In this document: in pieces, positions 366 through 64,000 of the stretch | Layout of the letters: each line of letters starts with the position of its first letter | Numbering within the stretch: the stretch's first letter is position 1 | DNA from: Tridacna crocea | Lineage: Eukaryota; Mollusca; Bivalvia; Cardiida; Cardiidae | Assembly (NCBI GenBank): GCA_943736015.1 | Contig: OX031059.1 | Span: forward strand, 55,253,159-55,317,158 | Direction of reading: 5' to 3' | DNA length: 64,000 bases | Notes under the pieces: generated by a model | The model's input: only the letters and a program-made list of their open reading frames with translations | Database searches by the model: none | What the model was told of the DNA's origin: nothing | Program-made: the position numbers and the translations under genes

Positions 366-3300
366 CTGAAATAGTTTTTTAACCCATTACCACACAATCC
401 CTACTTTTGACGCCCCTGAAAAAATAACCTTTAGAAAACATTGTGGGAAAAGGAGAAAATGCTGGTAACCAGCATTTTCTCCTTTTACCACAATGTTTTC
501 TTCCCTTCACAAAACAAATTTCAAATTTTCAGTCACTTTTACTTTGTCGTCTGCAAATGCTTTCAATTTGGACAAGTCCAAAATTTTGTTGTTTGGTAAT
601 GGGTTAAATTACCTGACCGTAGCAAAAAGACTTATGAAAATACTGTGAAGTCAACTTACACATACTGTTGGCTGACCAGGGTGGATACTTGTCGTGTATG
701 TTTAGAGCCCCCTCTTCACAGACCATAGCTCAATTAACCCATTACCAAGCAACAATATTTTAGACCGGTCCAAATTGAAAGCATTTGCAGACAACAAAAT
801 AAAATTGACTGAAAATTTGATATTTGTTTTGTGAAGGGTAGAAAACATTGTGGGAAAAGGAGAAAATGCTGGTTACCAGCATTTTCTCCTTTTTCCACAA
901 TGTTTTCAAAAGGTTTCTATTCCTGACCCGTAAAAACCAGGGATTGTTTGGGAAAGGGTTAAAAGAGATATAAATAATGTCAATCTATAACCAAAGAATC
1001 TGGCATTTTGATACCCCTGTGCTGAAATTTACAACATTGAACTTTCTCACTTTCCACAATATTTTCCACCCTAATAATGGAGAACAATGCCATCATCCCG
1101 CCAATATTTGACCTGTAGTATGTAATTCCCTTCAATATGGTGAAGTCTAAAACTTTGTCACGTGGTTATAAGTTAAAGGCAGAGTTCTTTTGGACCATTT
1201 GCAGACAACAAAGTAAACATGACTCAAATATTGAAACTTGACTTTTGAAGAGTAGAAAACATTGTGGGAAAAGGAGAAAATGCTGGTTAAAAGCATTTTC
1301 ACCTTTTTCTACAGTGTTTTCAGAAGGCTTCTTCCTCAGGATTGTTAAAACTAGGGACTGTTTGGTAAAGGATTAATTCTTGTTATTTCAAAATATGGAC
1401 AGAAATGTGAATTTCACTATGTGTTACAGCTGAATGTGTCAGAGGTTCAGTTACTTTCAGAAAATTGTGCTGTATTTTAACTAAAACTTTGTTAAAAGTT
1501 GCCAACTTTTGTTATATTTTTATACCATGGAAACCAAAATATCACCTGTTGTTCTTTGTAAAGAAACCTTAACTTATTTTTTTAGTCATCCTATCCTAAC
1601 GAAAGACCTAATTCCCACTTACAAAATCAATGAAAGTACTTAGTATATACATGTATATGAAAATGTACATCCATCATTCAGAGCTACAATGAAAATCATC
1701 ACAAGTTTTCTGTTGTACAAAATTCATCCTATGATGGAATGCACTTACAAATCAGTCTACTTGACAAAACTTAACCCTTGACTATACAATCCTAATTTTT
1801 GTAAGGAACCAAGGCTTGTCTTTATAGACACATTGCACTTTCTCACTTTCCACCTTATTTTCCACCCTAATAATGGAGAACAATGCCATCATTCCGCCAA
1901 TATTTGACCTGTAGTATGTAAATGTCTTCAATATGGAGAAGTCTAAAACTTTGTCATGTGGTAATAAGTTAAAGGCAGAGTTCTTTTGAAGTCTTTAACT
2001 CTTTACCACTCGAGAAAATTTTAGACTGGTCCAAATTGAAAGCATTTTGCAGACATCAAAATAAAGGTGACTGAAAAATTAAGATTTGGTTTGGGAAGGG
2101 TAGAAAACAATGTGGGAAAAGGAGAAAATGCTGGTGACCAACATTTTCTCCTTTTCCCAGAGTCTTTCCAAAAGGCTTCGTTCTCTGGGTCGTTAAAAGT
2201 CGGGATTGTGTGGTAAAGAGTTAACTCTTTACCATACGAAAAAATTTTAGACTGGTCAAAATTGAAGGCACATAGGCACATACAGACGACAAAATAAACA
2301 TAACTCAAAAATTGAAATTTGTTTCCAGCATGGTAAAGAACATAGCTGGAAAAGGAGAAAATGCTGATTACCAGCAATTTCTTCTTTTCTTACATTGCTT
2401 TCAAAAGTTTACTTTCTAAGAGTTGTTAAAAGGCGGAATTGTGTGGTAATGGGTTAAAAATTAGGGTTTCTGCCACTTAACTCTTTCCCAAACAAACCCT
2501 GGTTTTTGCGTGTCTGCAGTACAAGTCTTTTGAAAACACTGTTGGAAGAGGAGAAATTGCTCATAACGAGCAATTTCTATTTTTCCCACAGTGTTTTTCT
2601 CCCACTTGGAGAACTTTCTACCATTTTCATTTAGTCTGAAATTGTCGTCTGCAAACCCTTTCAGTTTGGAAGAGTCTAAAACTTGGAAAGGGTTAAATCA
2701 TGAAAGATAGAAAGCAAACAAACTGGTATAAAAATTTACAGAACTCAAATCCTAAAAAATTTCCTAACTATTATTTCATTCTATAATCGAGACATACTTT
2801 CTTTCTACAGTAATTCTTCTTCATCAAAGTTAAGTTGCTTGAGCTCAAGATGTTCTCAGTTTCAAAATCAAGCTATTCATTGACTGCAACTCAAACTGCT
2901 ATATACACTGTGACAAAGTTTTTAACCCATTACCACACAATCCCTACTTTTGACGACCCTGAGAAAGAGGCCTATAGAAAACATTGTTGGAAAAGGAGAA
3001 AATGCTGGTAACCAGCATTTTTTCCTTTTCCAACAATGTTTTCTACCCTTCACAAAACAAATTTCAAATTTTCCATCACTTTTATTGTGTCATCTGTAAA
3101 TACTTTCGATTTGGACAAATCTAAAATTTTGCTGTTTGGTAACGAGTTAACTTACTTCTTCATCTGGTTGGTCTAAATCCTCTTTTACATATTTAAATAG
3201 ACCAGGGCCATCTTCTTCCTCATCTTCATCGTCTTCGTCTTCATCTTCAAAGTCTTCGCTACAAAGTTTAGGGGGGAAAAAACCATCGAAAATAACATGT

Positions 3301-6300
3301 TACATCAGGCAAAAGTACTTGAACATGACAAAAAAACAAGAGGGCAAAAGCAGTCCTTAATCACTCACCTGAGAACACAGCTCTTGGAACAAGATGATCT
3401 TTAAAATTTCCAATACTGTTAGCCAACGTAAAATTTGTGACTTTCAGAGTAGGACCAATTTTGAACGAAGAGCAATAACTCAGAATTGACTCAAGAACTG
3501 TAACTTGAACGGTCAAATATTACAACAGTCGAGGCAAAAAATCACCTTAGACATCAAAATGCTAGAGAATTAACATTGCATGACTTTTTAAACCATTTAC
3601 CAAATGACAATATTTTAGAATGGTCCAAATTGAAAGCATTTGCAGACGACAAAAGTGACTAAAAATTTGAAATTTGTTTTGTGAAGGGTAGAAAACATTG
3701 AGGGAAAAGGAGAAAATGCTGGTTACCAGCATTTTCTCCTTTTCCTACAGTGTTTACTAAAGGCTTCTTTCTCTGGGGCGTCAAAAGTAGGGACTGTGTG
3801 GTAATGGGTTAATGATAAACATATTTCAAAATGTATCGGGTGTTTGATGGGGGAAAAGGATTCTTTCACCTTTGCCAAAGTTCCATGATTAAAGATATCG
3901 CAATTGGTTTCAAATTTCATTTTTTTTTCTTAACAACATCCAAACACATGGCAAATTATGCCAAATTTGTAGAAGCTAAATTTTGCATGGAATCACTTTT
4001 AAAACACACTTGTATAATATAGGTAATGAGCATAAATGTTTGGGTAAATGTGTAATGCACTATGGACCAAAGATATTGCTGGATATGCCCAAATGGGCAC
4101 TTTTTCATCAAGCCACAATGTTTTTGAAAGCAGTCACTTGCAAAAATCATTCAACACTTTATCACACAATCCCAAATTCCGACGACCTTTAGAAAGAGGC
4201 CTTTAGAAAGCATTGTGGGTAAAGAAGAAAATGCTGGTAACCAGCATTTTCTTCTTTACCCACAATGCTTTCTACCCTACCAGAAACAAATTTCAATTTT
4301 TGAGTCACAACTACATGCAATTATTTGTCTGCAAATGCTCTTAATTAGGACAAGTCTAAAATTTTGATGTTTGGTTGAGAGTTAATATAAACATTCAGAC
4401 ATTACCTGTTGTACTCTTCATCCTCATCACTAGAATCATCGTCATCATCATCATCACTGTCAAGGTCAGCTAACGTCATACCAGATTTTTTTCCTGACCC
4501 ACTTGCTTGCTGAAAACAAAAAACAGAAATTACCATTGTTCCTTTCATGCATCTTAGAGAGGGCCAGATAGGCCTTATTAACAATGAAGAAAACTGATTA
4601 AACTAGAGCTATCACTCAACGTGATCATACCCCCCACCAGCTCCTTGCCACCAAACAGGTCTTTGTCACAGAATGCAGAATGGTTAAGTACAAAAGTAAG
4701 AGTTGAACATGAGCGGAAAATTGTCGCAAGATACGCCCATCTTACCCCTAGCTGTTAAGCTGGGGCATGCACCGGACCCAATTCAAGTATGAAAAAACGA
4801 CAAAGGGTAATAACTCAAAAATCAAGTGAGCAAGAGTTATGATTCCTGTGCACTGCACTCCCCCTTGATGAGATCTATCCATCCATGAAATTTCATAACC
4901 CTAGCTAGTATAGTTTTGGAGATATGCTCCGGGCAAAATTTAAAAAAACAACAAAGGGCAATAACTCAAAAATTAAGGGAGCAGGAGTTATGGTTCCTAT
5001 GCACTGCACTCCCCCTTGATGAGATCTATCTACCCATGAAATTTCATAACTCTAGCTAGTATTGTTTTGGAGATATTCACTGGACCCAATTCATGTATTA
5101 AAGACGACAAAGGGTAATAACTCAAAAATTAAGGGAGCAGGAGTTATGATTCCTATGCACTGCACTCCCCCTCGATAAGATCTATCCACCCATGAAATTT
5201 CATAACCCTAGCTAGTATAGTTTTGGAGATATTCACCGGACCCAATTCAAGTATTAAAAACGACAAAGGGCAATAACTCAAAAATTAAGCAAGCAGGAGT
5301 TATGATTCCTGTGCACTGCACTCCCCCTTGGTGAGATCTATCCAGCCATGAAATTTCATAACCCTAGCTAGTATAGTTTTGGAGATACGCTCCGGACCAA
5401 ATTCAAGTATTAAAAACGACAAAGGGCAATAACTCAAAACTTAAGCAGGCAAGAGTTATAATTCCTGTGCACTGCACTCCACCTTGGTGAGATCTATTCA
5501 CCTATGAAATTTCATAACCCTAGCTAGTATAGTTTTGGAGATTCACTCCAGACAAAATTCAAGTATAAAAAAACAACAAAGGGCAATAACTCAAAAATTA
5601 AGCTAGCAAGAGTTATGATTCCTGTGCACTGCACTCCCCCTCGATGAGATCTATCCACCCATGAAATTTCATAACCCTAGCTAGTATAGTTTTGGAGATA
5701 TCCTCCGGACAAAATTCAAATATGAAAAAGAAATTTGTCCAGAATCATCAAAGGGCCATAACTCCATGAAACCTAAATAAACCATAACCAAAATAGGATA
5801 TGCACATCTCTGCTTTACACTGAGTCTATTTGTGTAGTTTGAACCAAATCTGTCCAATAGTTGATGAGAAAAAGAGCGGACAAGAAATTTCATGAAAGGG
5901 CCATAACTCAGTGAAAAATAAATGAACCATAACCAACATTTCATATGCACATCTCTGCTTGATACTGAGTTTACCTGTGAAGTTTGAGAAATAGAGCGGA
6001 CAAAAAGCTACAGACCGACCGACCGACCGACCGACCGACCGACCGACAAGCTGACTCCTATATACCCTCCAAACAGAATTTTGGGGGGTATAACTATGCA
6101 AGCTTAATGATTTAACCCTTTTCCAAACAATCCCTGGTTTTCACGACCCTGAGATAGAAGCCTCTTGAAAACATTGTGGGAAAAGGAGAAAATGCTGGTA
6201 ACCAGCATTTTCTCCTTTTACCCTGCTGGAAACAAATTTTAATTTTTGAAATACATTTATATTGTTGCCTGCAAGTGCTTTCAATTTAGACCAGTCTAAA

Positions 6301-9300
6301 ATTTTGCCATGTGGTAAAGAGTTAATAACATCTATATTTGTCAAGGCAAACAAACTACCTTTGACACCCTTCAATTGCTAATACCTGTTTATCTATGGAA
6401 ACTAGATCTAGATCAGTCTTAACAGGACATGAAGTCTGATCTTGGTGCTACACTGTCACCTTCTTTGTCATATACTCTGACTAAAACTAGTTTGAGACAG
6501 TAATACATTAGATGTTTTTACAAAATTTAAATTTTTTATTTCAATTATCAAGCAAACTATCCCTTACTACTGTGTTAAATTATTCCTATAATATCAGCCT
6601 TTCAAACACGTTTTACGAAGCATGGTTTTCTATTCAGGGCTACAATGAACTCATCATTGTAAAATTCTGCCATGTTAACATTCATCATTATAGAAAACAT
6701 GCTCCTCTTAACTCTTTCATTCATCATGCGTTAGTCTGATCCTTGATCTACACTGTCCATAAAGGTTTCTGGGTCTTTTATGGTATGAAAAAAGTTTTAT
6801 AATCAATAAAAGAAAATGTCAAATCACTTTTCTGCCCTACAATCCTAGTATGCTTACATGACCCTGGAAAGAAAGCTTTTGACATATCATGGGGAAAGAA
6901 GATCTCAGATTTCCTATCATTCGAAAGACAAATCAAATTATTTGAGCAGCATTACTTTGTCCCATGCAAATGCACTCAATCTTGCTGTTCTGTTAAGACT
7001 GAGCAAATTCCTAACAGTTATTCTGTTAAATAAATAAAATTAAATTCTCAATTTGGTAGTAAAAATCCAAATACCACTGTTTCAAAGTTATGGGGGAAAA
7101 TATCTCCTTATCAGACAGTGTAGATCCAAGATCAGACTGCACGTTCTGTGCAGTCTGATCTTGATCTACAATGTCTGCAAAAGGTCAGAAAGCCATGCTT
7201 AGTAGCCTAAGGGTTAATATTATTGTGCTCATTATACTGTACAACAGGCTAAAGGCACATTAGTGGCCAAAAAGAACAGTGGGATTCAAAATGCAGACAA
7301 ATTTAACTTGTTACCTAATGATGAAAATTTTGACTTGTCAAAATTGAGGGCATATGCAGCCAACAAAGTAAAAAATGACTCAGATATTTAAACTTGACTT
7401 TGGAAGAGTAGAAAACATAAATTTGGGAACGAAGAAAATGCTGGTTACCAGCATTTTCTCTTTTTTCCAGTGTGTTTTCAGAAAGCTTCACCTGTTTTTC
7501 TTTGAAAAGAAACTGTATCTTGCTGTTTTTACCCCATCCTAACGAAACAAATAATTCCTATTCACTAAATCAATGACAATACTTGATATATCTGAAAATG
7601 TACATCCACCATTCAGAGCTACAATGAAAATCATCACAAGTTTTCTGTTGTACAAAATTCATCCTATGATGGAATGCACTTACAAATCAGTCTACTTGAC
7701 AAAACTTAACCCTTGACTATACAATCCTAATTTTCATAAGGAACCGAGGTTTGTCTTCATAGACAGAGCCTACGGAAGAAAAAGCTGGTAACAAGCCCTA
7801 CCCAGGGTTTTCCATGGCGCACAAATCCTGCGTCATTGACGCAATTTTAATTCAAATGACCCCCAAAATAAATGACAGTGTGTCATCGGTGACACAACTT
7901 TCCAAAATCTAAATAATGTACGAAGTTGAATAAAGCGTCGTAATTCCAAGTCTGTTCTTGCTTCAATGTCAGACGAACACCATTCTTTTTCTAATTACAG
8001 GGTTTATTTTAGATAAAAGTGGTTTTCCGGTAATTTATTTATAGAATAAGACTGGTATTTCATAGCATATTTTACACGGCTTCCGGTATATAAAAGTACA
8101 CATTACCGGTTTGTGCTGTTAGCTGAAAAATATTGTCATGACAAACAAAACTGTAGCATTCTTCTGTCGTCTGCTTCCTACAACTGCCGATCAAGCCATG
8201 TCAAGCAGCGATTCGGACGAAAATGTTTGGTCTGTCAAAAAGTGACATCAGCCTTTCTGACAGAAATGATCGACCGATTTTTCATTCTTGGAATTTGGCA
8301 ATTAAAGGTAAAATGCATTATAAATCGTGCTTGAAGTTGATGACGAGGAAAACCATATTTTTGACCCCCAAAGTTAATGAAATGACCCTCAACTAATGAG
8401 GAAGGGGGTCACAATGACCCCCAATTTTCAAAGCCGAGGGTAAACCCTGCCTACCCTTTTACAGACCTATTCCATAATCTTAGCTGACTATCAATTGTCA
8501 TTGATCTGAAAATGCTATAAATGTTGACAAGTCTAAAGTTCTGTTGTCCCCTATAAGGTGAAACAATCTTACCCCAGATGAACTTGGTTCGCCTGATCCT
8601 GAGGGTCCTGAGACTACTCCTGAACTTGAGCCTGAACTTTGACTGGAACCAGCTGAGACACCTGATGCTGCAGCATCGCCTGATCCTGTACTGCTTGCTG
8701 CTTCTGAAGATACTCCTGAACTGCTAGATGAACTTGAGACTGATGACACCGCAGATGAATACCCTGCTGATGACGATGCTGCTGCTTCCCCAGATATTAC
8801 AGGTTCGGCATCATTGTCTTTACTAGATGTACTCACTACACCATTATCTACATCAGCACTGTCATCAAAATGGTCTATTTTTTCCACATCAGCATTACTT
8901 TCACTAGTACTGCTAACAGCTGCCTCTGACTTTTCCAGCACATTTGATTTTGAATCACTATCAGCACTATCCTGCTTTTCATCATTATGAGAGCCCGTTT
9001 CTTTAAGTTCTTTTTCAGTATTAACATTATTGTCATTATCAGGATGGTCCTTTTCTGCTTTGAGATCAAGCTGCTCTTTAACAGAGTCAAGCGTGTTTCC
9101 ATTTCCTACATGAAATAAAAAGATGACAATGTGGGTTGAATAAACAGCATTCTGTAGCCTTTCTATCATCCATCTTAATCGTGATCTCTAAGTACTATAG
9201 GCTTAAATATTGATCTAGAGGCGATACTTAGAACAAATTGGTCTCAAGATAAAAGATCCCAACATGCAGTTCTTTTCTCTAAGGGAATTTTGCTCAATCA

Positions 9301-12300
9301 AACAAAAAAATTTTACACTAGTCCAGGGTTTTAGTCTGACAGTTCCTTTTGGGGGTCCTTGGGACTCGACTTCTATGATTATGGGAGTCCTGACTTAAAA
9401 ATTGGGAGTCCCTTGGTTGGACAAATTTGAATACCAATACCAATTATTTTTCCATATATTTTAATTTCCAAACAAGTTAAATAAAAAAAGAAATATTTCA
9501 AGCATCTGCAGACGACCACTCCCGTCTGCTATGGAATAATATACCTATATTTTCATAAAACTTTTTTTTTTCACTCATGAATGGAAATATAGCTTCCATT
9601 TATTACTTTATACAGAGATTTGTGTAAATTCACTGTTTAAATTTACTATTACAGATGAGAACATAGTTTTAAGTCTCCCTGATCGGATGATGCCACGCTG
9701 CTCATTGTATAGTGTCATGGGTTTTCACGATTTTTTAGCGATCTATTTTTTCGTGACAATTCATTTTTGGAGAAGTATTACTACATGAGTTAACATCGGT
9801 TAGTCAGTTTAAATAGCAAGTAACTTAAAAATCTGTCACTTTACATTAGATTAGAAGAATAATACAGTTACCTTTGTTACTCTGTCATACATGACTCGCA
9901 AACTTCATTATCATCCGCGAGTCCTTCGCATTCTATACTTATCGTGTTTGGCCCATATTTCTGCCGGATGCGCGCAAGCTAGGTGATATGAAGCTCTAGA
10001 TGATAATTTCATGCGTCATATTGACATTTGGGCAGATTTTTTTCATTGTCAAAGACAGGTCATTTCAAAATTCCAAGTGTCAAAACCCAGTCTCAGGGAT
10101 CAAATGAGAAGCATGCCGAGTTGTCAAGTTTTGTAAAGACATCCATGGAAAATTATTTCTTTCTCATTTTTCCTACCAATGTTTGTTATCCACTAGTCTA
10201 TGTTTAATCGATGATTGTGATTAATCGTAGTCACAAAACCAAGAATTCAAGTTTAGGCACCAAGCGAGTTCAAGAACCGACTACTGTCGATTCCGGGATT
10301 TCTCAATCGATTATCTGAATCGGAAGCCAAAACCAACTGACTTTCGACTATAGTCGATCATCGGCCCACTACTAGTTTGCAGACGCTATTTTTAATGCTG
10401 TGTCAGCACAAACAACCTTTAGGGGCTCGGTCTAAATCACAGATAACGAGCCGGCCGCTTTCGTAGTTTAGGTCAAAATTAATGATAATTTCCGGCGGAC
10501 GCTATACGTTTATTTTTCTAACAATATTTCTTTACTTTTGTAAAGAACTACCGTAAAGAACATTTTTTGTTGAACTGTTTTAGCCTACCTATTTTCGATC
10601 AGCTTGTCGAGAATGCTGGGTTTTTACACCTTACCGCACTTATGGTCCGAAAAGCTGCGGTATGTTTTGGGTACTATTGTTCATGTTCGACAAATTTTAT
10701 CTTCTGGTATCAGTTACTTCTTAGGGTTCTCAATCGTCAAATCTACACCCAATGACAACAAAATTAGAATTGCGTCCCAGGGTCGCAGTAGCGTAAGTTT
10801 TGGGAGTCCTGCTTCCCTATTTCTGCGGGTCATTTGGGAAAGGGTTAAGGTCATTAAAATTCAGAATTGTGGAGTTAATTATCAATATGTAGTCTACAGA
10901 CAAAAGAAAATGTAGTAGTTTACAACATTGTTTTGTATTGGGAGTTGATAAAACAATATCTAAATATATGTTAACTCTTTACCATAAAATCCCGACTTTT
11001 AATGACCCTGAGAAAGAAACCTTTTGAAAAAACTGGAAAAAGGAGAACATGCTGGTAACCAACATTTCTACTTTTCCTACAGTGTTTTCTACCCTTCCCA
11101 AACCAAATCTGAATTTTTCAGTCAACTTTAATTTGTCGTCTGCAAATGCTTTCAATTTGGACCAGTCTAAAATTTTCTTGTGTGGTAAACAGATTACACA
11201 ACTCTTTGATACTAACCTGTCATTTGTTTAGACCGTTTGGCCTTGATCATGGGTGAAGGCTGTTTTTGTCCCTTTAAATGCTTATTCTGCTGCAACAGAG
11301 GATTGCCGGAATACTTTGCTCGAAGTTCTTCAATAGGCATACTTGCCTCCTCATACAGTATGTCTGCTTCTTTTCTTACAGCTATGTCGTCAGCTAGAAA
11401 TTCAGAAACGATCAAATCAAAAGTACCTATAGAGAACTTTCAAAACAAACAAGGCATCTGTACGGGCAACCTAACTGCTAAAAGTCAGTTAACATTTTTA
11501 GCAAAATTACTCATGTATGATGAAATTATCACTTGTGACCATTAACAAAATCATTTAGTAAGACAGCAAAATAGCTTTGGAAGACTTGAAATTGGCAGTC
11601 CCAATTTATAGTCAGACATTATAGCTCTTCCAGATAACTATTGCGCGCATTGTGACAAAGAGAGATACTTCTCCAAATAAGAGGGAGTGATGCAATTCCA
11701 AATCCATTATTTCTCTTCTAAACCCTAAGTTGTGGGTATTCATTAGACGATTTTAATGAGTACCCACAACATAGGGTTTAGTGGAGAATATTTTGAACTC
11801 AAAATCACTCCCTCTATCTGGAGCTCTGCTTCTCATATCGTCGGTGTACTTCCAAAACCTTGTAACTACAGCTTGTAACAAGCTGTAGTTACGAGGTTTT
11901 GAAAGTACACCAATGACATACATCAACTAATTTTTAACAACGGTTGCTCACATATTTAGGTATTACCCCTTTACCTCACATTCCTCTGTTTTCACAACAT
12001 ATGGCATAAGCATTTTCTCTTTTTACCCACAGTGTTTTCTAATATTCCAAAACAAATTCCACTTTTTGAACATTTCAATTTTAAATTTAGAGTGTCATCT
12101 GGAAATACTACTTTGGACATTTCTAAAATTTTGACTTTTGGTACAGAGTAGAACCTTTATTAACCCTTAACCAAACAACAACATTTTAAACTTGCCCAAA
12201 TTGAAAGCATTTGCAGACGACAAAATACCACAAAATAAAAGTAACTATAAATTTGAAATTTGTTAGGAGTAGGATAGAAAACGTGGGAATAGGAGTAAAT

Positions 12301-15300
12301 AGGAGACAAAACTACCGTGACTCAATGATTGAAACTTGTTCTGTAGGGGTAGAAAACATTGTGGGAAAAGGAAAAAATACAGGTTACCAGCATTTTCTTC
12401 TTTCCCACAATGTTTTCAAAAGGCTTCTATCTCAGGGTCATAAAACCCAGGGATTGTTTGGTGAAGGGTTAAGATTGTCCCTTACCTTCTTCATCCTCAT
12501 CATCACCATCATCATCCCCTGCTAGAACTTTCAGCTCCTTTATAACCTCGTCCTGGGTCAGAGTTTCATCGAAACCAAGGAAAGCCTGTCTTAAACAATC
12601 TGCTAAATTGTTCTTCTTGTATTCTTCCACATGTTTGATGAAGTCTGGAAGTTTGGCTGAACAATATTTTGCTACTTCTGCTCCTGTAGTTGTAGGTAGT
12701 CGTAACATATAAAATGGTTAACTCTTTACTAAATGACAAAATTGTAGACCAGTCCAAATTGAAAGCATTTGCAGACAACACAAAATAAAAGTTACTGATA
12801 ATTTGAAATTTGATTTGTGAATGATAGAAATCGTAGGAAAAACAGAAACTGATGAATACCAGCATGTTCTCCTTTTCCCACAATGTTTTTCAAAGTCTTC
12901 TTTCTCAGGGTCGTCAAAAGTAGGGATTGTGTGGTAGTGGGTTAAGCCATGCTGTGAAAAGAGGCTTTAACTCTACAAAACAAGCCCGGCTTTTCACAAC
13001 TCTGAGAAAGAAGCCTTTTGAAAACATTGTGGGAAAAGGAGAAAATGCTGGAAACCATGTTAGTATCTGTTAGGGTGTGAGGACCTTGCCCATTAACATG
13101 ACTCAGTTGCTGAAGTTTGGGTCTGTCAAATTTGTCATGTTAAAAAAAGACATTCTCAATACATAAGTATTTGAACAGATAAAATATTATCAAAATATAT
13201 TACAGTAATATATTAAATGACAAAGTCAAATGTGGTAAAGTTCAATTGTATTTCTGTTCATACACTGTTCAAATTGCGTTCAACATTTCAACATTCATTG
13301 TTTTGCCCAAAACTGTAGCTAAATATGATGTGGCTAAAGCAGAATCGTAGATCATCCTTTACTCAATATTCCTGTGTTTTCACAAACTTGAATAAATCAA
13401 CTGTAAAAAACAAAGTGGAAAGAGGAAAAATGCCGGTAACCAGATTTTTCATCTTTTCCATACCATGTTATTAACTACCCTTCTATAGAAATGTCCTGTA
13501 AACTACATGTTCTTTGATTTGTTGTCTGTAAATGCTTGAAAATGGACAAGCATTGTCTGGGAAAGAGTCAACAGGAAACTACTGCAAATCTACACCTTTT
13601 TTATTTGAAATTTATTTGCATTTCTTCCTACATTGAAACTTTCCCTGGCACTCAGGATTTCTTTTGTAGACAGTTCTGTTTAAATCTATTTTGAACCAAC
13701 ATACCTCCATGACCGTCATACACAGCAAATAAAGATGTGCTTGTATCAGCATCAAAGTCCGGCAAACAGTTATGAGCATCCTGCAAGTACAGAGCAAATC
13801 AGTTTAAATCAATAAATAAGACCGATCAACTTAACTTTTGACCTTTACCAACTTTTAGACTGTCCAAATTGAAAGCGTTTGCTGATGACAGACTAAATGT
13901 GACTAAAAAGTTAAGATATGTCATGTAAGAAACAGAAAAAATTATTGGAAAAGAGGAAAATGCTGGTTACCCATGATTTATCATTCGGGTTGTTAAAGTC
14001 GAGAGTCTGTGGGCGTTATCCCTGCCTTGCTACAAGGAAATGACAGTCATTCACTCCCTTCAATTTCAAATGCAAAGAAATCTAATCACAACAACAACAT
14101 CAGAGCAACCCTCCAAACTGAAGGTATGAATTAGTATTTTAAGTGTTCACTTTTCAGTTCTTTAAGTCATGTGTTGGTTAACAGTCATAGTACTTTTCAG
14201 TTCTTTAAGTCATGTGTTGGTTAACAGTCATAGTAGTTGCATTTAATCATGACCATCATCATAAAATCCTGCTTGGATGAACAAATTGAACATAAGAATG
14301 TTATTGCAGGGTTTTCCCTCGGCTTTGAAAATTGGGGGTCATTGTGACCCCCTTCCTCATTAGTTGCGGGTCATTTCATTAATTTTGGGGGTCAAAAATA
14401 TGGATTTCCTCGTCATCAACTTCAAACACGATTTATAATGCATTTTACCTTTTAAACGCCAACTTCCAACAATGAAAAGTCGGTCAATCATTTCTGACGG
14501 AAAGGCCGATGTCGCTTTTTGACAGATAAAACATTTTCATATGAATCGCTGCTTGACGAGGCTTGATCGGCAGTTGTAGGAAGCAGACGATAGAAGAATG
14601 CTACAGTTTTCTTCGTCATGACATTATTTTTCCGCTAACAGCACAGACTGGTAATGTGTACTTATATACCGGAAGTCGTGTAAAATATGCTATGAAATAC
14701 AGAGAAACCAACCACGACTTTGTTTGGACCCATATTTATGACACGTGTGCAATATACATTTCGGCAATAATGCGTTAACCAGTCTTATTCTATAAATAAA
14801 TTACCGGAAAACCACTTTTATCTAAAATAAACCCTGTACTAAATAAAGAATGGTGTTCATCTGACATTGAAATAAGAACAGACCTGGAATTATGACGCTT
14901 CATTCAACTTCGTACATTAGATTTTGGGAAGTTGCGTCACCGATGACGCACTGTCATTTATTTTGGGGGTCATTTGAATTAAAATTGCGTCAATGACGCA
15001 GGATTTGTGCGTCATGGAAAACCCTGTTATTGTATCCTTTTTGATATTTAAGTGAGCATACCTAATAGACAGTGAAGCAAAGATGTGTTACAGTCATTGT
15101 CTGCGCAACTCATATTCTTTGAAGATCCGACCTGTCTTATATGACATATCACTAACCCCGATATCGGGAAACTGCAGTATTATGTTCTATAAAGTAGCAA
15201 TGTAGAAAATAGCTTTTATCAGTATGTTTGAGGAGAAATGAGACCAGTTTTAGCTCCAGATTTCTCTAAACTGTTACAAAAGTACAACCCCCACCCCCAA

Positions 15301-17152: not shown

Positions 17153-17397
17153 TTAATCCATACCACACAATCCCTACTTTTGACGACCCTGAGAAGGAAG
17201 CCTTTGGAAAACACTGTGGGAAAATGATAAAATGCTGCTAGCCAGCATTTCCTCTTTTTCCCACAATGTTTTCTACCCTTCTCAAACCATATTTCAATTT
17301 TTTTTTTCAGTCACATTCATTTTGTTGTCTGCATTTGTCTTTGATTTTGCATTTTCTCCTCTTCCCACAAGCTTTTATACCCTATTAAAGACGGTTA
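17153..17397 (+). repeat. TTAA foldback element
   Basis: TTAATCCATACCACACAATC left end; CATTTTCTCCTCTTCCC is repeated near the right, so the right half is rearranged. Confidence 0.8.
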
Positions 17398-17931: not shown

Positions 17932-18135
17932 TTAACCCAGGGATTCTATATAACATATGTATTATCCCTGCTTATCCCTTTCTCAAAAGACAAATTTTAC
18001 ACTCGAAGAATTTGTAAACAATTTAAATTTTGATGAAAAATGGTGGTAAATGGTCATCCAAAAGGGTAGAAAACACTGTTGGAAAATGAGAAATTAGCAT
18101 TTTCTCTTTTTCCTACAGTGTTTTCAAAGGACTTG
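17932..18135 (+). repeat. Degenerate TTAA foldback element
   Basis: TTAACCCAGGGATTC left; ACACTGTTGGAAAATGAG and TTTCCTACAGTGTTTTC arms with an eroded centre. Confidence 0.55.
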
Positions 18136-18290
18136 TACTGCATGTAGGAAAGCAGTCAGTGGCTTAGAAAGAATATTGTGCCGAGTACTGGTTATAAAAA
18201 CTCAAGGAAAGCATGAATAGGTGCACTGGCCGATTCAAAAGTACTGAAATACTGTTAAAAACGGCGTTAAACACCATTCATTCAATCAAA
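18135..18290 (+). mobile_element. SINE 3' part
   Basis: AAAGCAGTCAGTGGCTTAGA ... ACTGTTAAAAACGGCGTTAA ACACCATTCATTCAA: the body and tail of the SINE whose head is at 18322-18560. Confidence 0.7.
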
Positions 18291-18805: not shown

Positions 18806-19555
18806 AACCTTTGTTCTCTCACTCCTGTCCCACTGGCTATGAAATTCTTGCCACCATGAATACAGTATTTAAAGCGATATCCCGTAATACTTTATCCTTT
18901 CTTTTATTTTTGTTTTGTTTGTACGCGCGGCTGGGCTTTTTGTATAATCATAGAATCCCTCTAGAAAAACTGCACACTTTCTGCACTTTGATAGCACTCT
19001 ATTGCGCTTTTAAATGTTTGAAAATCTGCAAATTTCTTCCCGACGTGAATACTATGAACCATTTTGACCATATGATACAAAATTGGCTTGAAATTGCTTT
19101 CAGAAAATTTTCCGTGATTGAGTAATAGATTAATTATCAATTTCTGTGATTGAGTAATTAATTAATTATGTCGTTTTCCATAATCAATTAAAGAACAACA
19201 AAAGTTAAAATAATGTAAGATCCGCATACATCTTAAGCAATTAAATTCACCTAACTAATCAACGCAATTATTATTTTCGCGCATCGATGCAAACTCGCAC
19301 ACAGCAACGAGTTTCTGTCCTTTGATGTGGAGATTTATACTAATACATACTAATAACGATAGTAATCAAAACCGAAGTAAATTTATAATTTCTTACATGT
19401 ATCTACAAAATACCGTACCTCTAGCCTATATCATAAGAATGACTAGAGATACGGTACCGTATCTTTAGACTTCGGGGCTAGAGGTACGGTACCGTATCTC
19501 TAGCCATTTCCTTGATATAGGCTAGAGGTACGGTACCGTATCTCTAGCCACTGCC

Positions 19556-19763
19556 ATTTCCCAAATGACAAAATTTTAGACTTGTCCAAATTGAAAACAT
19601 TTGCAGACGACGAGATGAATGTGAATAAAAAAATTGACTTAAGAAAGTAGAAAACACGGTGGGAAAAGTAGAAAATGCTAGTTACTCCTTTTCCCACTAT
19701 GTTTTCAGAAGGCTTCTTCCTCCGGGTCGTAAAAGCCAGGGACTGTTTGGGAAAGGGTTTTAA
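19556..19763 (-). repeat. TTAA foldback element interrupted by the Mutator-like element
   Basis: The copy starts at about 17399 (ATAACTATTTCCCAA), is split by 17414-19555 and resumes with the duplicated ATTTCCCAA to GGGTTTTAA at 19763. Confidence 0.85.
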
Positions 19764-19799
19764 AAGCTAATTAATATGTTGTCAGCAAACGCTTTCAAT

Positions 19800-26175: not shown

Positions 26176-26177
26176 TA

Positions 26178-26549: not shown

Positions 26550-26779
26550 TTAACCCTTTCCTAAACGACAAGGTTTTTTAACTTGTCCAAATTGAAAACA
26601 TTTGCAGATGACGAAATAAACATAGCTCAAAAATTGAAGTTTGTTTCCAGCAGGGTAGAAAACATTGTGAGAGAAGGAGAAAATGCTGGTTACCTGCATT
26701 TTCTCCGTTTCCCACAATGTTTTCAAAAGTCTTCTATGTCAGGGTAGTAAAAACTAGGGATTGTTTGGTAAAGGGTTAA
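26550..26779 (-). repeat. TTAA foldback element
   Basis: TTAACCCTTTCCTAAACGAC to GGTAAAGGGTTAA. Confidence 0.88.
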
Positions 26780-27190
26780 AACATGTCGTTGTCTCTCTCT
26801 AACCCCGTCAAAAACTCCCTTGTCTTGAGTCTTGTTTTGCAGGGATCTAATTCTTTAAATAATTTCGTACGATCCTTGGTTTATGTGACAACTTTTATTG
26901 TGATTTTGTATAAAATGTAGTTTCGCTGTTTTTTTTTTCCCCCCTTGATCTTTATCTTAGTTTTGTCATGCTTTCTTAAATTCTTCGCCGCCTATGTAAT
27001 TTCAAGTGGCCTTTGTATTTTAGGTTGTGTATTTTACTCGTTCATTTTGTACTATACTACTCAAAATTTGCTGTGGATGACCATAAAAGATTCACAGTAG
27101 ATCTACAATGCGATACGTATCATGTATGGTTTTACAATATGTTACACTGCCATACTGATCAATAAAATCACCAGTGGAAATTTATCTTTA
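26780..27190. other. AT-rich spacer
   Basis: Poly-T/poly-C tract near 26930-26945; nothing else recognised. Confidence 0.5.
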
Positions 27191-27372
27191 ATCCTTTACC
27201 TCACAATGCCCACGGTTAAAGACACTGAGAAAGAAGCCTTTGGAAACATTGTTGAAAGAGGAGAAAATGCTGGTAATCAGCATGTTCTCTTTTTCTCACA
27301 ATGTTTTCAATTTTCTATTCACTTTAATTTTGATGTCTGCCAATGCTTTCAATTTGGACCAGTCTAAAATTG
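27190..27372 (+). repeat. TTAA foldback element, shortened
   Basis: TTAATCCTTTACCTCACAAT left end; right side lacks about 40 bp. Confidence 0.75.
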
Positions 27373-27380
27373 TGTCATCT

Positions 27381-27579
27381 GGGCCCGCATTCACCAACCA
27401 ATCTTAAGAACATTCTTTTGTCTTATTCTCCAGAATTTTCTACACTTGTAAGTAACACAACTTCTGATTGGCTAAACCATTCGGTTTAGCCAATCAGACA
27501 TTGTGTTACTTACAAATTTAGAAAACCTCGGAGAAAAAGACTAAGAATATTCTCAAGAATGGTTGGTGAATACGGGCCC
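27381..27579. mobile_element. Palindromic MITE (GGGCCCGYATTCACCAACC), copy 1
   Basis: 199 bp; outer ends GGGCCCGCATTCACCAACC and GGTTGGTGAATACGGGCCC; inner arms GTGTTACTTACAAATTTAGA. Second copy 49455-49616. Confidence 0.85.
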
Positions 27580-27842: not shown

Positions 27843-28070
27843 TTAACTCAATACCAAACGACAAAATTTTAGGTTTGTCCAAACTGAAAGCATTTGCAGA
27901 CGACAAAATAAAAGTGAATGAAAATTTGAAAAACATTTTGTGAAGGGTAGGAAACATTGTGGGAAAAGGAGAAAATGCTGGTTACCAGCATTTCTCCTTT
28001 TCCCACAATGTTTTCCAAAGGCTTCTTTCTTAGGGTCGTCAAAAGTAGGGATTGTGTGGTAATGGGTTAA
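27843..28070 (-). repeat. TTAA foldback element sharing its TTAA with another family
   Basis: Right TTAA 28067-28070 is also the target of the 539-bp element. Confidence 0.9.
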
Positions 28071-30240: not shown

Positions 30241-30343
30241 ACCACGCCATGACACAAGCTCTGCTGGCTGAAAGCCAGTACAGCCAATAATACGACCCTT
30301 CAGGCATATAAAAATGTCTCTGATTTTAAATTCAGAACTTTCC

Positions 30344-30550
30344 ACACAATCCCTACTTTTGACGCCCGTGAGAAAGAAGCCTTTAGAAAACATTGTGGGA
30401 AAAGGAGAAAATGGTGGTAACCAGCATTTTCTCCTTTTCCCACAATGTTTTCTTCCCTTCACAAAACAAATTTCAAATTTTCAGCCACTTTTACTTTGTC
30501 GTCTGCAAATGCTTTCAATTTGGACCAGTCTAAAATATTGCCATTTGGTA
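30344..30550 (+). repeat. 5'-truncated TTAA foldback element
   Basis: Begins CCACACAATCCCTAC without TTAA; palindrome intact (one mismatch, GGTGGTAACCAGC). Confidence 0.85.
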
Positions 30551-30714
30551 ATAGGGGGTACGACGGGTAGCAAGTAAAACATCAAGTTCAATTTTCATGT
30601 TAGATTTTAATCTAAGAGCAAGTAGCAAAAGGAGACATTTAAAACGGGACTAGATTATTGCACACATATAGGAAAACATACCATCTTACCAGACAGAAGC
30701 CTGTAAGGCTGGGC

Positions 30715-30947
30715 TTAACCCTTTACCTGATATACCACTTTGAGGCTCTTCCATTTCAGCAGCAAATAAAGATACGACGTCAAAAATATGGACCAATGAG
30801 GATACAAATATCTGACTGAGTGGAAAACATTGTGGGAAAAGGAGAAATTGCTCGTTGCGAGCAATTTCTCCTTTTCCCACAATATTTTCAAAAGCTGTCT
30901 GTTGTTGATACTCTGTCAAAATGAGTATCTATGGTGTAAAGGGTTAA
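30715..30947. repeat. TTAA foldback element, subfamily III
   Basis: Ends TTAACCCTTTACCTGATA and GGTGTAAAGGGTTAA; palindrome centre TTGCTCGTTGCGAGCAA. Shares the TTAA 30944-30947 with the next copy. Confidence 0.85.
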
Positions 30948-31163
30948 CCCTTTCCCACACAATGACGACCCTTGGAAAGAAGCCTCTTGAAAACATCGTG
31001 GCAAAAGAAGAAAATGCTGGTTACCAGCATTTTCTCCTTTTTCCCACAATGTTTTCTACCATATCAATTAATAATTGCATCATTTGAGCCACTTTGAAAT
31101 TGTCGTCTGCAAATGCTTTCAATTTGGACAAGGCTAAAATTTTGTCGTTTAGAAATGAATTAA
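30944..31163 (+). repeat. TTAA foldback element sharing TTAA
   Basis: TTAACCCTTTCCCACACAAT to GAATTAA; left end lacks the CCCTACTTTT block. Confidence 0.85.
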
Positions 31164-31574: not shown

Positions 31575-31803
31575 TAACTCTTTCCCAAAGAAGCCCTGGT
31601 TTTTATGTGTCTGCAGTACAAGTCTGTAGAAAAACACTGTGGGAAAAGGAGAAATTGCTCGTAACGAGCAATTTCTCCTTTTCCCACAGTATTTTCTAGC
31701 ATTTTGGAAAACTTTCTGCCATTCTCATCAAATTCAAAATTGTCATCTGCAAGCACTTTGAGTTTGGGACATTCTCAAATTTGTCATGTGGGAAAAGGTT
31801 ATT
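31575..31803 (+). repeat. TTAA foldback element, subfamily II
   Basis: CTCTTTCCCAAAG end; perfect arms around TTGCTCGTAACGAGCAA. Confidence 0.85.
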
Positions 31804-32390: not shown

Positions 32391-32617
32391 TAAACCATTA
32401 CCACACAATCCCTACTTTTGACGCCCCTGAGAAAGAAGCCTTTTGAAAACACTGTGAGAAAAGGAGAAAATGCTTGTAACCAGCATTTTCTCCTTTTCCC
32501 ACAGCGTTTTCTACCCTTCCCAGAACAAATTTAAATTTTTCAGTCACCTTTATTTTGTCGTCTGCAAATGCTTTCAATTTGGACCAGTCTAAAATTTTCT
32601 CGTGTGGTATAGAGTTA
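32391..32617 (+). repeat. TTAA foldback element (CACTGTG arm type)
   Basis: Arms AAAACACTGTGAGAAAAGG and CCTTTTCCCACAGCGTTTTC; left TTAA, right eroded to GAGTTAT. Confidence 0.88.
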
Positions 32618-32972: not shown

Positions 32973-33201
32973 TTAACTCTTTGCCACACGAGAATATTTT
33001 AGACTGGTCCAAATTGAAAGCATTTGCAGATGACAAAATAAAGGTGACTGAAAATTTGAAATTTGTCCTGGAAAGAGTAGAAAACACTGTGGGAAAAGGA
33101 GAAAATGCTGGTTACCAGCATTTTCTTCTTTTCCCACAGTGTTTTCAAAAGGCTTCTTTCTCAGGAGCGTCAAAAGTAGGGATTGTGTGGTAATGGGTTA
33201 A
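32973..33201 (-). repeat. TTAA foldback element (CACTGTG arm type)
   Basis: Arms AAAACACTGTGGGAAAAGG and CTTTTCCCACAGTGTTTTC. Confidence 0.92.
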
Positions 33202-33350: not shown

Positions 33351-33604
33351 TCCTCCCAGAATTCACCTTTGAAAAAGAAAAAAATTGGGTTTTTACCATC
33401 GGCTTGAAGGCTTGAAGGTTTCATTTCATTTATCTAGCAGGTTTACAATTAGTTCAGGTGGCCACTGAGGCAGGTTTACTGTAGTAGATTTCGGGGACGA
33501 ATTGAATAGATATTACCCTTAAACGCTGAAACTAACGATACACGATAAGAACAGCTTGTAAGCTTGATTACATCCTATTTTTTTCGTAAAATACATATAA
33601 GTCC

Positions 33605-33811
33605 GAGTTTTAAATTCCTTGAAGAAAAAGTCTTTTGAAAACATTGTTGGGAAAATGAGAGAATGCTGGTAACCAGCATTTTCTCCTTTTCCCACAATGT
33701 TTTCTACCCTTTCCAAAACAAAATTCTTTTTTTTTAGCAATATTTATTTTGTCGTCATTAAATGCTTTGAATTTGGACCAGCCTGAAATTTTGTTGTTTG
33801 GTAAGGAGTTA
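33605..33811 (+). repeat. TTAA foldback element, left end lost
   Basis: Palindrome GAGAGAATGCTGGTAACCAGCATT; right end GGTAAGGAGTTA. Confidence 0.78.
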
Positions 33812-34054: not shown

Positions 34055-34261
34055 TTAACTCTTTACCACACAATCCCGACTTTTAACGACCCTGAGAAAG
34101 AAAGCCTTTGAAAACATCATGGGAAAAGGAGAAAATGATGGTAACCAGCATTTTCTCCTTTTCCCATAATGTTTTCTACCCTATCAAGTTTCATTTTTTG
34201 ATTCACATTTATTTTATTGTCTGCAAATGTTTTCAATTTGGACTAGTCCAAAATTAGTTAA
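34055..34261 (+). repeat. TTAA foldback element between the two possible DOCK7 3' ends and intergenic DNA
   Basis: TTAACTCTTTACCACACAAT to TTAGTTAA; lies just beyond the candidate exon 34352-34418. Confidence 0.88.
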
Positions 34262-34615: not shown

Positions 34616-34844
34616 TTAAACCCATTACTACACAATCCCTACTTCTTACGACCCTGAGAAAGAAGCCTTAAGAAAACATTGTTGGAAAAGGAGAAAATGC
34701 TGGTAACCAGCATTTTCTCCTTTTCCCACAATGTTTTCCACCCTTCACAAAACAAATTTCAAATTTTCAGGCACTTTCATTTTGTTGTCTGCAAATGCTT
34801 TCAATTGGACAAACCTAACATTTCGTCGTTTGGTAATGAGTTAA
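34616..34844 (+). repeat. TTAA foldback element
   Basis: Full length; one arm reads GTTGGAAAAGG. Confidence 0.9.
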
Positions 34845-34856: not shown

Positions 34857-35077
34857 TTAACCCTTACGAAATGACAATATTTGTCCAAATTGAAAGCATA
34901 TGCAGATGTCAAAATAAAAGTGACTGAAAATTTGAAATATGTTTTGTGAAGGGTAGAAAACATTGTGGGAAAGGGAGAAAATGCTGGTTACCAGCATTTT
35001 CTCCTTTTCCCACAATGGTCTCTAAAGGCTTCTTTCTCAGGGGCGTCAAAAGTAGGGATTGTGTGGTAATGGGTTAA
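34857..35077 (-). repeat. TTAA foldback element
   Basis: R end shortened (AAATGACAATATTTGTCC); otherwise intact. Confidence 0.88.
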
Positions 35078-35341: not shown

Positions 35342-35570
35342 TTAACCCTTTCCCAAACAGAAAAATTTTAGACTGGTCCAAATTGAAAGCATTTGCAGAT
35401 GACAAAAAAAACTCAACTCAAAAATTGAAATTTGTTTCCAACAGGATAGAAAACATTGTGGGCAAAGGAGAAAATGCTGGTTACCAGCATTTTCTCCTTT
35501 TCCCACAATGTTTTTAAAAGGCTTCTATCTCAGGGTCGTAAAAACCAGGCATTGTTTGGTAAAGAGTTAA
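35342..35570 (-). repeat. TTAA foldback element near DOCK7 terminal exon
   Basis: Full length; lies 160 bases 3' of the TAA, so it would be in the 3'UTR if that stop is used. Confidence 0.9.
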
Positions 35571-35731: not shown

Positions 35732-61477
<25,746 letters not shown>

Positions 61478-61525: not shown

Positions 61526-61749
61526 TATCTCCTTACTAAACAACAAAAATTTTAGACTTGTCCAAATTTACAGGATTTGCAGATGACAACAGTGACTAAA
61601 AAATTGAAACTTGACTTTAAAAAAGTACAAAACATTGAGGGAAAAGGAGAAAATGCTAGTTACCAGCATTTTCTCCTTTTCCCACAATGTTTTCAGAAGG
61701 CTTCTTCCTCTGGGTCTTAAAAACCAGGGATTGTTTGGTAAAGGGTTAA
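61526..61749 (-). repeat. TTAA foldback element
   Basis: R end TTATCTCCTTACTAAACAAC; right TTAA 61746-61749. Confidence 0.82.
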
Positions 61750-61924: not shown

Positions 61925-62153
61925 TTAACCCTTTACCACACAATCCCTACTTTTGACGCCCCTGAGACAGAAGCCTTCAGAAAACATTGTGGGAAAAGGA
62001 GAAAATGCTGGTAACCAGCATTTTCTCCTTTTCCCACAATATTTTCTACTCTTCACAAAATAAATTTCAAATTTTCAGTCACTTTTACTTTGTCGTCTGC
62101 AAATGCTTTCGATTTGGACAAACTTAAAATTTTGTCGTTTGGTAACGAGTTAA
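61925..62153 (+). repeat. TTAA foldback element
   Basis: Full length, both TTAA. Confidence 0.92.
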
Positions 62154-62235: not shown

Positions 62236-62465
62236 AAATCAACCCTATACCAGAAGACAAAAAGTTGGATCCAAACTACAAGCATATCCAGACAACAAAC
62301 TGACTGTATCTCAATGATGAGATTTGTCTTGGAAAGAGGAGAAGAGAAAATGGAAAAGGAGAAAAAGCTGGGAAAAGGCTGGTTACCAGCATTTGTCACT
62401 TTCCCACAATATAATAAACAGTCTCTGCCTTAGGGTCCTTCATTACAGGATAGTACCAGTATGGT
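62236..62465 (-). repeat. Degenerate foldback element
   Basis: ATCAACCCTATACCAGAAGA; centre GCTGGTTACCAGCATTTG. Confidence 0.6.
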
Positions 62466-62527: not shown

Positions 62528-62756
62528 TTAACCCATTACCACACAATCCCTACTTTTGACACCCCTGAAAAAGAAGCCTCGTGAAAACACTATGGGAAAA
62601 GGAGAAAATGCTGGTAACCAGCATTTTCTCCTTTTCCCATAGTGTTTTCTATCCTTCCCAGAACAAATTTCTATTTTTTAGTCACCTTTATTTTGTCATC
62701 AGCAAATGCTTTCAATTTGGACCAGTCTACAATTTTCTTGTGTGGTAAAGGGTTAA
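62528..62756 (+). repeat. TTAA foldback element with preserved empty-site neighbour
   Basis: Full length. Flanked by copies of AAGTATGGTTTAGCAATATC units; the junction between units 1 and 2 (62495-62501) shows the unoccupied CTCTTTAAAGTATGG. Arms share a matched CTATGGG/CCCATAG change. Confidence 0.93.
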
Positions 62757-63392: not shown

Positions 63393-63632
63393 GGAATAGA
63401 CTTTACTCATTACCACTCAATCCCTACTTCTGACGCCCCTGAGAAAGAAGCCTGTAGAAAACACCGTTCAAAAAGGAGAAAATGCTGGTAACCAGCATTT
63501 TCTCCTTTTTCCACAATGTTTTCTACCCTTCACAAAAAAAAAAATTCAAATTTTCAGTCACTTTTAGTTTGGCGTCTGCAAATGCTTTGGATTTGAACAA
63601 ACCTAAAATTTTGTCATTTGGTAATGAGTTAA
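63393..63632 (+). repeat. TTAA foldback element
   Basis: Left TTAC, right GGTAATGAGTTAA; A-run expansion at 63535-63544. Confidence 0.88.
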
Positions 63633-63639
63633 GCCCACC

Positions 63640-63708: not shown

Positions 63709-63899
63709 TGACAGGGACGACAAAAGTCCACTGCTTGTAAAAAAGTGTTAGAATTTTTTTTTTTCGTTTTTGTAAGAAAAACCACATTAGGGATTTAATG
63801 ATCAGAATGATCAACTTGCCTTTCTTCCTTCTCAAGGTTTATTTCTCTGCAACATTTCCCATACTAATATCAACCATGTGAAAGAAGACTTTAATGAAA

Positions 63900-64000
63900 A
63901 TTGTGAGAAAAGGAGAAAATGCTGGACTTTTGAAAACAATGTGAAAGAAGGAGAAAATGCTGCTTACTGGCATTTTCTGCTTTTTCTATAATGTTTTCTA
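63900..64000. repeat. Foldback element running off the window edge
   Basis: Two successive GAGAAAATGCTG arms (63916, 63950), the second followed by GGCATTTTCTGC. Confidence 0.6.

Follow-up and report, generated by a model that had tools for sequence, protein, structure and literature searches.

The stretch of DNA analyzed here, referred to as the window, comprises 64,000 bp of Tridacna crocea contig OX031059.1 (55,253,159..55,317,158, forward strand). It contains many copies of a short element that is flanked by TTAA and carries a 67-bp internal palindrome, and that probably belongs to the piggyBac-type miniature inverted-repeat transposable elements (MITEs). An earlier note on this sequence had placed two genes here, putatively PPM1G and DOCK7, and two genes on the minus strand are recognizable at the level of protein domains. 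A PP2C domain lies at 111-386 (E 8e-33), with a second PP2C match at 12469-12717 (E 0.003, below the curated cut-off), and a DHR-2 domain lies at 51583-51873 (E 1e-7).

The arm sequence of the palindrome, GAAAACATTGTGGGAAAAGG, has 107 matches in the window at three or fewer mismatches, compared with a mean of 0.04 in dinucleotide-shuffled sequence. An iterated profile locates 87 non-overlapping copies or fragments, which occupy 16,093 of the 64,000 bp (25%). Both ends are present in 43 of these pieces, and 63 copies are at least 150 bp long (32 on the plus strand, 31 on the minus strand). The family consensus is 228 bp plus the first T of TTAA and consists of 54 bp, the 67-bp palindrome (two 33-base arms and a single central A/T) and a further 107 bp, in agreement with the 66-bp palindrome and flanks of ~50 and ~110 bp described earlier. 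The previous count of about 60 units likewise holds for copies of at least 150 bp, but saturation of the region is uneven, and the longest copy-free stretch (19759-26550) extends for 6.8 kb. The element is small and has no transposase reading frame, as is expected of a MITE. Its left end matches the reverse complement of its right end over 14 bp at 93%, TTAA included. Besides these termini, the inverted sequence consists of the internal 33-bp arms, so the element is not of the foldback type with long terminal inverted repeats (TIRs). The palindrome is perfect in 25 of 194 copies with gapless arms, taken from the window and other loci, and has two or fewer mismatches in 88 of them. A scan of the window for quasi-palindromes returns 67 sites, versus 1 and 0 in two Markov-shuffled controls, and ~52 of the 67 were assigned to the TTAA family when sorted by hand. 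The TTAA-flanked palindrome units in the window are confirmed as real and as one family, which is larger than first described.

Among the 43 window copies with both ends, TTAA is exact on the left in 35 and on the right in 33. The copy at 47917-48149 is nested in an older copy whose two parts, when joined by a single TTAA, align to the family consensus across the junction without a gap. Also, the flanks of a copy at locus L024 match an unbroken repeat in the window (45924-46065) at 92.6% with one TTAA, and this repeat represents a paralogous empty site. Neighboring copies can have one TTAA in common, for example at 2221-2224 and at 30945. Because the nested copy, the empty site and the neighbors each show one TTAA, this sequence is the target and is duplicated upon insertion, as the earlier note had proposed. 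The contrary observation that it had named in advance, TTAA unduplicated at empty sites, was sought in these comparisons, and the proposal stands.

The genome comprises 1,048,827,098 bp in 31 contigs, and the window is on the contig designated C4. The same profile was applied to a 200-kb sample of twenty 10-kb stretches at round coordinates on 18 contigs, each longer than 40 Mb. This sample contains 212 pieces, 95 of them with both ends, which make up 19.1% of the sampled bases (bootstrap 95% interval 13.4-25.0%; 18.7% at a stricter cut-off). Scaled to 1.05 Gb, these values correspond to ~1.1 million pieces, of which about half a million have both ends. Across the whole genome, there are 35,555 exact matches to one 34-base left end and none to its reversed control. 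The same left end is found 7 times in the sample (6.8 expected) and 7 times in the window (2.2 expected), which indicates that the window is richer than the genome average. The exact central 35 bases occur at 166,719 places genome-wide, and the exact 67-base palindrome at 26,428. Plasmid and phage collections contain no match to the element, and IMG/VR contains no exact match to a 25-base arm sequence. In number, ~1.1 million pieces are roughly comparable to Alu, and to our knowledge it is rare for one element that encodes no protein to make up ~19% of a 1.05-Gb animal genome. The conserved palindrome, with its mirrored inherited changes, points to a concrete and testable internal module that bears on why certain MITEs explode in number. 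At G000:C10:5717989-5718674, three ~150-bp units (element positions 1-149) are arranged in a row beside a full copy. This is a tandem array growing from a MITE, of the kind reported in the available text on the coral elements termed CMITEs (PMC2872659).

Comparisons of conservation draw on 378 pieces from the window and 47 loci, of which the 286 that span the core were used for divergence and for a shuffle test. Subsets were clustered (273 pieces, 164 of them in five clusters at the middle of three cuts), placed in a tree (243) or searched for rare variants (232), in addition to the 194 gapless-arm copies and 50 entirely gapless ones. Because the profile was built on the entire element, query bias toward conservation of the palindrome is lessened but not eliminated. 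Over the 286 copies, divergence from the consensus is 9% in the arms, 21-22% in the flanks, and 16% and 19% in the terminal 18 bases of the 5' and 3' ends, respectively. Among the 50 gapless copies the corresponding values are 3-4%, 10-15%, 10% and 15%. The palindrome is the best-conserved part of the element, above both the flanks and the terminal repeats. Slower mutation of the arms after insertion was considered and rejected: rare variants (<3%) amount to 0.027 per site in the arms and 0.013 in the flanks, a rough comparison in that flank variants are often too frequent to be classed as rare. Because rare variants are not fewer in the arms than in the flanks, the conservation is placed in the source lineages. 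That the palindrome is kept better than the element's own ends suggests that it helps the element to spread.

The core seems not to travel alone, since 303 of 311 core matches sit in elements with family flanks, and the 33+1+33 palindrome belongs to the element itself. Conceivably, the palindrome derives from a separate palindromic MITE that once landed inside a piggyBac MITE. MADE1 is an example of a palindromic MITE, TA borders the palindrome on both sides in some copies (for example, 3689-3759), and a fairly intact core (54 bits) at L026:5991-6057 lacks the family flanks. However, flanks are missing in only 8 of the 311 matches, several of which are degraded and one of which is cut by the window end, and we consider such an insertion very unlikely.

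Inherited changes in the arms tend to be mirrored. The identical change is found in both arms 161 times, compared with 41 +/- 6.6 in 1000 shuffles of right arms among copies (maximum 62). Clustering on the flanks only yields five groups of at least 7 copies, and the consensus of four of these is a perfect palindrome; two of the four differ from the main arm by 3 and 4 changes, all of them mirrored. Swaps of A-T to T-A and of G-C to C-G are found among the mirrored changes, at arm sites 13, 20, 25 and 30. In a tree based on the flanks, internal branches with at least 3 leaves carry 9 mirrored and no unlike double changes, versus 0-3 co-changes in partner-shifted controls. Branches that lead to pairs of copies carry 68 one-arm changes and 4 co-changes (1 mirrored, 3 unlike; 0-3 co-changes in the controls), and terminal branches carry 39 mirrored, 33 unlike and 867 one-arm changes. 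Single copies decay arm by arm, and the arm changes that define subfamilies are mostly paired.

Paired changes could also arise by mutation, if replication or repair across a hairpin copies one arm onto the other, processes known as template switching and quasi-palindrome correction. The palindrome would then have no function in transposition, and source copies and dead copies would be affected alike. The copy at 4153-4385 fits this idea, as all three of its arm changes are mirrored at a flank divergence of 19%, and the genome contains no second instance of its 67-mer at one or fewer mismatches. The 25-mer of its three-change arm occurs at 7 other places; 6 of these can be aligned and have the changes in one arm only, and the seventh (L053) is unaligned over the core. 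Copies of similar divergence have a mean of 3.9 unmirrored changes, with none in 5 of 72 copies, 4153-4385 included. Exchange of chimeric arms, which the 7 occurrences might have suggested, was rejected, because ~40 are expected by chance among roughly a million copies (a rough estimate). Genome-wide, arm site 26 is changed in one arm at 2,753 places and in both arms at 69, versus 11 expected if the arms were independent, and arm site 28 is changed in one arm at 6,933 places and in both at 235, versus 72 expected. Among the matches listed, 31 of 50 double changes are mirrored at each site, a share that base composition would put at 36% and 41% (p 0.0002 and 0.002); the 50 places per site are the first in contig order and were counted by hand. 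On terminal branches, co-changes (72) likewise exceed those of shifted controls (43-53).

Thus, some arm-linked change does occur. Nonetheless, its rate is low: linked doubles amount to ~1.0% and ~1.2% of one-arm changes at the two sites, mirrored changes on terminal branches are few beside the 867 one-arm changes, and some mirrored doubles may represent small unresolved subfamilies. A rate of ~1% seems too weak to explain the mostly paired subfamily changes, and unbiased copying alone would not leave the arms less diverged than the flanks. A requirement for an intact palindrome in the amplifying copies is therefore favored, and copying as the full explanation appears doubtful, although it is the strongest competitor. 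The many similar copies also constitute a natural experiment on mutation in palindromes, in which arm-linked doubles are estimated at ~1% of one-arm changes at two sites.

Most element ends next to TTAA read CCC or CTC. The commonest 5' start is CCCATT (45 copies), CCCTTT is common, and CTCTTT is a frequent variant. In the available text on CMITEs, piggyBac-type MITEs are defined by TIRs of 12-19 bp that start with CC[C/T]T (PMC2872659). Here the CCC is present and the fourth-base T is found in part, as many copies start with CCCA or CTCT; L035 and L047, which are true piggyBacs in the same genome, likewise start with CCCAT. A search for the piggyBac transposase domain (PF13843) gives 118 matches in the genome, many of them with open frames, and the genome has intact piggyBac transposases. 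Twenty of the 118 were read, and TTAA-bounded ends are recognizable in 8. These represent four end types that start with CCCTTTATATAC; CCCTAGTCATGC (or CCCTTGTCATGC); CCCATTTATGCC (or CCCATGTATGCC); and CCCTTTCAG, and all 8 elements start with TTAACCC. The CCC/CTC ends and the transposases fit the earlier assignment to the piggyBac type, and the element is, as judged from its sequence, probably a piggyBac-type MITE in which the exact CC[C/T]T motif is found in part. A comparison of left-only and right-only ends in register within 4 kb, aimed at an autonomous partner, produced one weak pair (37429 and 40882).

Other observations concern the transposase loci themselves. Locus L034 (G000:C1:49494800-49498300) reads as an intron-bearing, piggyBac-derived gene that has old, degraded element copies both within the intron and downstream of the 3' end. 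Several weak palindrome-like matches on either side of its transposase were considered as subterminal repeats and rejected, as on reading they resemble such degraded copies. On G000:C8 near 56.71-56.76 Mb and on C13 near 4.48-4.61 Mb, piggyBac transposase matches, most of them broken, form local clusters, which perhaps represent a tandemly duplicated or domesticated gene.

We favor, with a probability of roughly 75%, the explanation that the element is a non-autonomous MITE of the piggyBac/TTAA type in which copies with an intact palindrome amplify, the palindrome being a working part. A piggyBac-like transposase would act as the motor and move the MITE in trans by cut-and-paste at TTAA. Amplification would be restricted, wholly or for the most part, to copies whose palindrome is intact, and the integrity of the palindrome would be kept or restored in the amplifying lineages. 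The palindrome would most likely act as DNA, either as putative inverted internal transposase-binding sites or as a putative cruciform that aids pairing of the ends. It might have originated when an internal deletion in an autonomous element joined two subterminal inverted repeats, an event that would yield an off-center palindrome. Two of the autonomous piggyBac loci, L035 (22 bp, 137-158 and 372-393) and L032 (15 bp, 37-51 and 48-62), have subterminal inverted repeats that are placed asymmetrically with respect to the ends. Doubtful, and bolder, is a stronger form of the proposal, in which the palindrome is a third cis-acting part besides the two ends, either only paired-palindrome copies amplify or transposition itself rewrites the arms, and this module enabled the ~million copies. 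If so, the element would renew its own palindrome in each cycle, and the module would have let the family reach a fifth of a 1-Gb genome.

Several points weigh against the favored explanation. Most of the mirrored excess is found at a few diagnostic sites, and outside eight such sites, which were picked post hoc, both arms are changed at 1.91 times the expected frequency at partner positions and at 1.54 times that frequency at non-partner positions. The consensus of the fifth flank cluster has one unpaired arm change. On the internal branches with at least 3 leaves that carry the 9 mirrored changes, 47 one-arm changes are also mapped, and 3 of the 9 fall close to the root, on branches with 227 or 230 leaves, and are perhaps the same events as others seen from the far side. 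The contrast between arms and flanks may partly reflect many source lineages with variable flanks. As for the motor, none of the 8 piggyBac loci with recognizable ends, among the 20 of 118 read, has the MITE ends or aligns with the MITE. The other 12 loci yielded no end pair, so an autonomous partner could have been missed. The case for an internal-deletion origin is weak: subterminal repeats of such length are missing from L047, which has the ends of L035, from L042 (11 bp only), which has the ends of L032, and from the remaining four loci.

The lack of MITE ends at those 8 loci would also be expected if the element belonged to Kolobok or another superfamily that targets TTAA. TTAA is indeed the Kolobok target as well, and the ends next to it are of the RR/AG type in the available text on this superfamily (PMC6004289). 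The ends of the MITE, however, are mostly CC or CT, and the eight piggyBac elements of the same genome with recognizable ends all start with TTAACCC. An assignment outside piggyBac therefore appears highly improbable.

Another interpretation is that the palindrome is kept for an RNA hairpin, with small RNAs or ADAR editing that would shield or regulate the element, or with a hairpin that would lower its cost in introns. The earlier note had proposed transcribed copies as candidate Dicer or ADAR substrates. The consensus does fold into a stem of ~32 bp, as previously noted, which by symmetry could be formed from either strand, and copies lie close to exons of the two genes. However, the hairpin loop has only ~3 bases, the mirrored A-T/T-A and G-C/C-G swaps fit DNA and RNA equally, and Rfam yields no match in the window at the gathering score. 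Moreover, neighbors in opposite orientation would give far longer duplexes (up to ~230 bp) without any palindrome. When the 63 copies that measure 150 bp or more are considered, 36 adjacent pairs are in opposite orientation, 31 of them less than 1 kb apart. If double-stranded RNA matters, these inverted neighbors should be a stronger substrate than the palindrome stem. We regard a role as RNA as unlikely.

An element right-end fragment at 51748-51825 (minus strand) overlaps the open frame containing the DHR-2 exon. The fragment may lie at a splice acceptor because it seems to abut the start of this exon. Elsewhere, a 283-amino-acid open frame at 19764-20615 (plus strand) reads like part of a protein of a non-long-terminal-repeat retrotransposon, without a Pfam match (E 0.01). 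A second palindromic repeat, with arms CAAGATCAGACTGCAC, is present at 36787-36823, where it follows TTAACCCTTTGGCTG, and at 7127-7163, where it precedes GGGTTAA. Because of these flanking sequences, it may represent a further TTAA/CCC MITE whose palindrome is internal. The palindromic repeats at 11718-11781, 51892-51960 and 11843-11911 are seemingly unrelated to the TTAA family; the first two have a common TTGTGGGTA..TACCCACA core and flanks with ACTCCCTC. A MITE-like repeat with long TIRs (TTGTAAGTAACACAACTTC...) and flanks that end in GGTGAATAC occurs at 27446-27515 and 49500-49571, and clusters of CTAGAGATACGGTACCGTA-like inverted motifs occur at 17422-17530 and 19438-19547. The larger copies of the TTAA family are collected in Table 1.

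Table 1. Larger copies, a selection from the 87 pieces located by the iterated profile, and selected features of the window
Feature	Position	Strand	Additional evidence
Full copy (seed)	380..607	+	
67-bp internal palindrome of seed copy	434..500	.	arm search, quasi-palindrome scan
Full copy	734..961	-	
Partial copy	1195..1375	-	
Full copy, one TTAA common with next copy (2221..2456)	1995..2223	-	
Full copy, one TTAA common with previous copy (1995..2223)	2221..2456	-	
Full copy, variant palindrome subfamily	2478..2696	+	
Full copy	2923..3150	+	
Full copy	3591..3811	-	
Full copy, three identical changes in both arms; 67-mer genome-unique at <=1 mismatch	4153..4385	+	
Full copy	6113..6325	+	
Partial copy	7304..7489	-	
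Full copy	10972..11192	+	
Partial copy	12304..12471	-	
Full copy	12718..12944	-	
Full, diverged copy	13355..13570	+	
Partial copy	17158..17347	+	
Partial copy	17973..18145	-	
Nearly full copy	19555..19759	-	
Full copy	26550..26778	-	
Partial copy	27189..27383	+	
Full copy	27843..28069	-	
Nearly full copy	30339..30554	+	
Full copy, variant palindrome; one TTAA common with inverted next copy (30945..31162)	30715..30946	-	
Full copy	30945..31162	+	
Full copy, variant palindrome subfamily	31575..31801	+	
Full copy, joint nearest to consensus among 45 copies compared	31958..32185	-	
Full copy	32391..32617	+	
Full copy	32973..33200	-	
Nearly full copy	33594..33811	+	
Partial copy	34056..34255	+	
Full copy	34619..34844	+	
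Full copy	34859..35076	-	
Full copy	35342..35569	-	
Full copy, mirrored C in both arms	36950..37174	-	
Partial copy	37735..37928	+	
Full copy	38319..38548	-	
Full-ended, diverged copy	38672..38853	+	
Full copy	39394..39621	+	
Full-ended copy, internal deletion; TTAA common with next copy (40218..40438)	40022..40220	-	
Nearly full copy	40218..40438	-	
Nearly full copy	40574..40793	+	
Full copy	41574..41799	+	
Full-ended copy	41834..42024	-	
Full-ended copy	42415..42614	+	
Full copy	42760..42981	-	
Nearly full copy	43783..44004	+	
Uninterrupted repeat, empty site for L024 copy (8934-9162)	45924..46065	.	
First part of older copy, split at TTAA by 47917..48149; resumes after 48149	47832..47916	-	
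Full copy nested in older copy (flanks rejoin with single TTAA)	47917..48149	+	
Full copy	51322..51548	+	
Full copy	52679..52905	-	
Full copy, variant palindrome subfamily	54327..54554	+	
Full copy	55535..55761	-	
Full copy, perfect palindrome	56512..56739	-	
Left half of a copy	56990..57116	+	
Nearly full copy	58157..58379	-	
Partial copy	58626..58823	+	
Nearly full, diverged copy	59248..59460	+	
Partial copy	59464..59645	-	
Full copy	59879..60102	-	
Full copy	61526..61748	-	
Full copy	61926..62153	+	
Partial copy	62241..62440	-	
Full copy, two mirrored arm changes, perfect palindrome	62529..62756	+	
Full copy	63405..63632	+	

Among known elements, those of the foldback type, for example Tm1, carry long inverted repeats at their termini. 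The element described here resembles them in having an inverted-repeat structure, but its TIRs are ~14 bp and its long inverted repeat is internal. MADE1 is a mariner-type element that is palindromic as a whole. It is likewise a short palindromic element able to form an RNA hairpin, whereas the palindrome here is off-center and the element is of the piggyBac type. Palindromic MITEs of the MADE1 type are described as the source of hsa-mir-548 (PMC1784062, available text). The T2-MITEs of Xenopus, which belong to Kolobok, are also MITEs that target TTAA and form many subfamilies, but their ends are AG/RR, and the string 'palindrom' has no occurrence in the available text (PMC6004289). In the open-licence literature searched, the titles and beginnings of abstracts mention neither this element nor a piggyBac MITE that has a long conserved internal palindrome.

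The closest likeness is to the CMITEs of Acropora corals, which are also of the piggyBac/TTAA type with CCC ends and have an internal block that is better conserved than the TIRs (PMC2872659, on whose available text the following comparison rests). The CMITE block is common to families with different ends, a matching autonomous element is given for only one family, and tandem arrays and one copy in an intron are reported. The palindrome here was regarded as unusual in the earlier note; this holds for its palindromic nature, while CMITEs provide a precedent for an internal block conserved above the TIRs. CMITEs are ~100 bp long with an estimated ~1,600 copies, whereas the element here has 228 bp, ~1.1 million pieces and a 33+1+33 palindromic block. 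By eye, the 60-base CMITE block differs from this palindrome, and the available text reports no long palindrome or mirrored changes. What appears to be new is the palindromic nature of the conserved block, the mirrored changes and the scale. The CMITE authors leave the cause of the conservation open and point out that a query with the internal block biases the result (PMC2872659). Conservation of an internal block above the TIRs, unexplained in CMITEs, is here tied to a candidate module.

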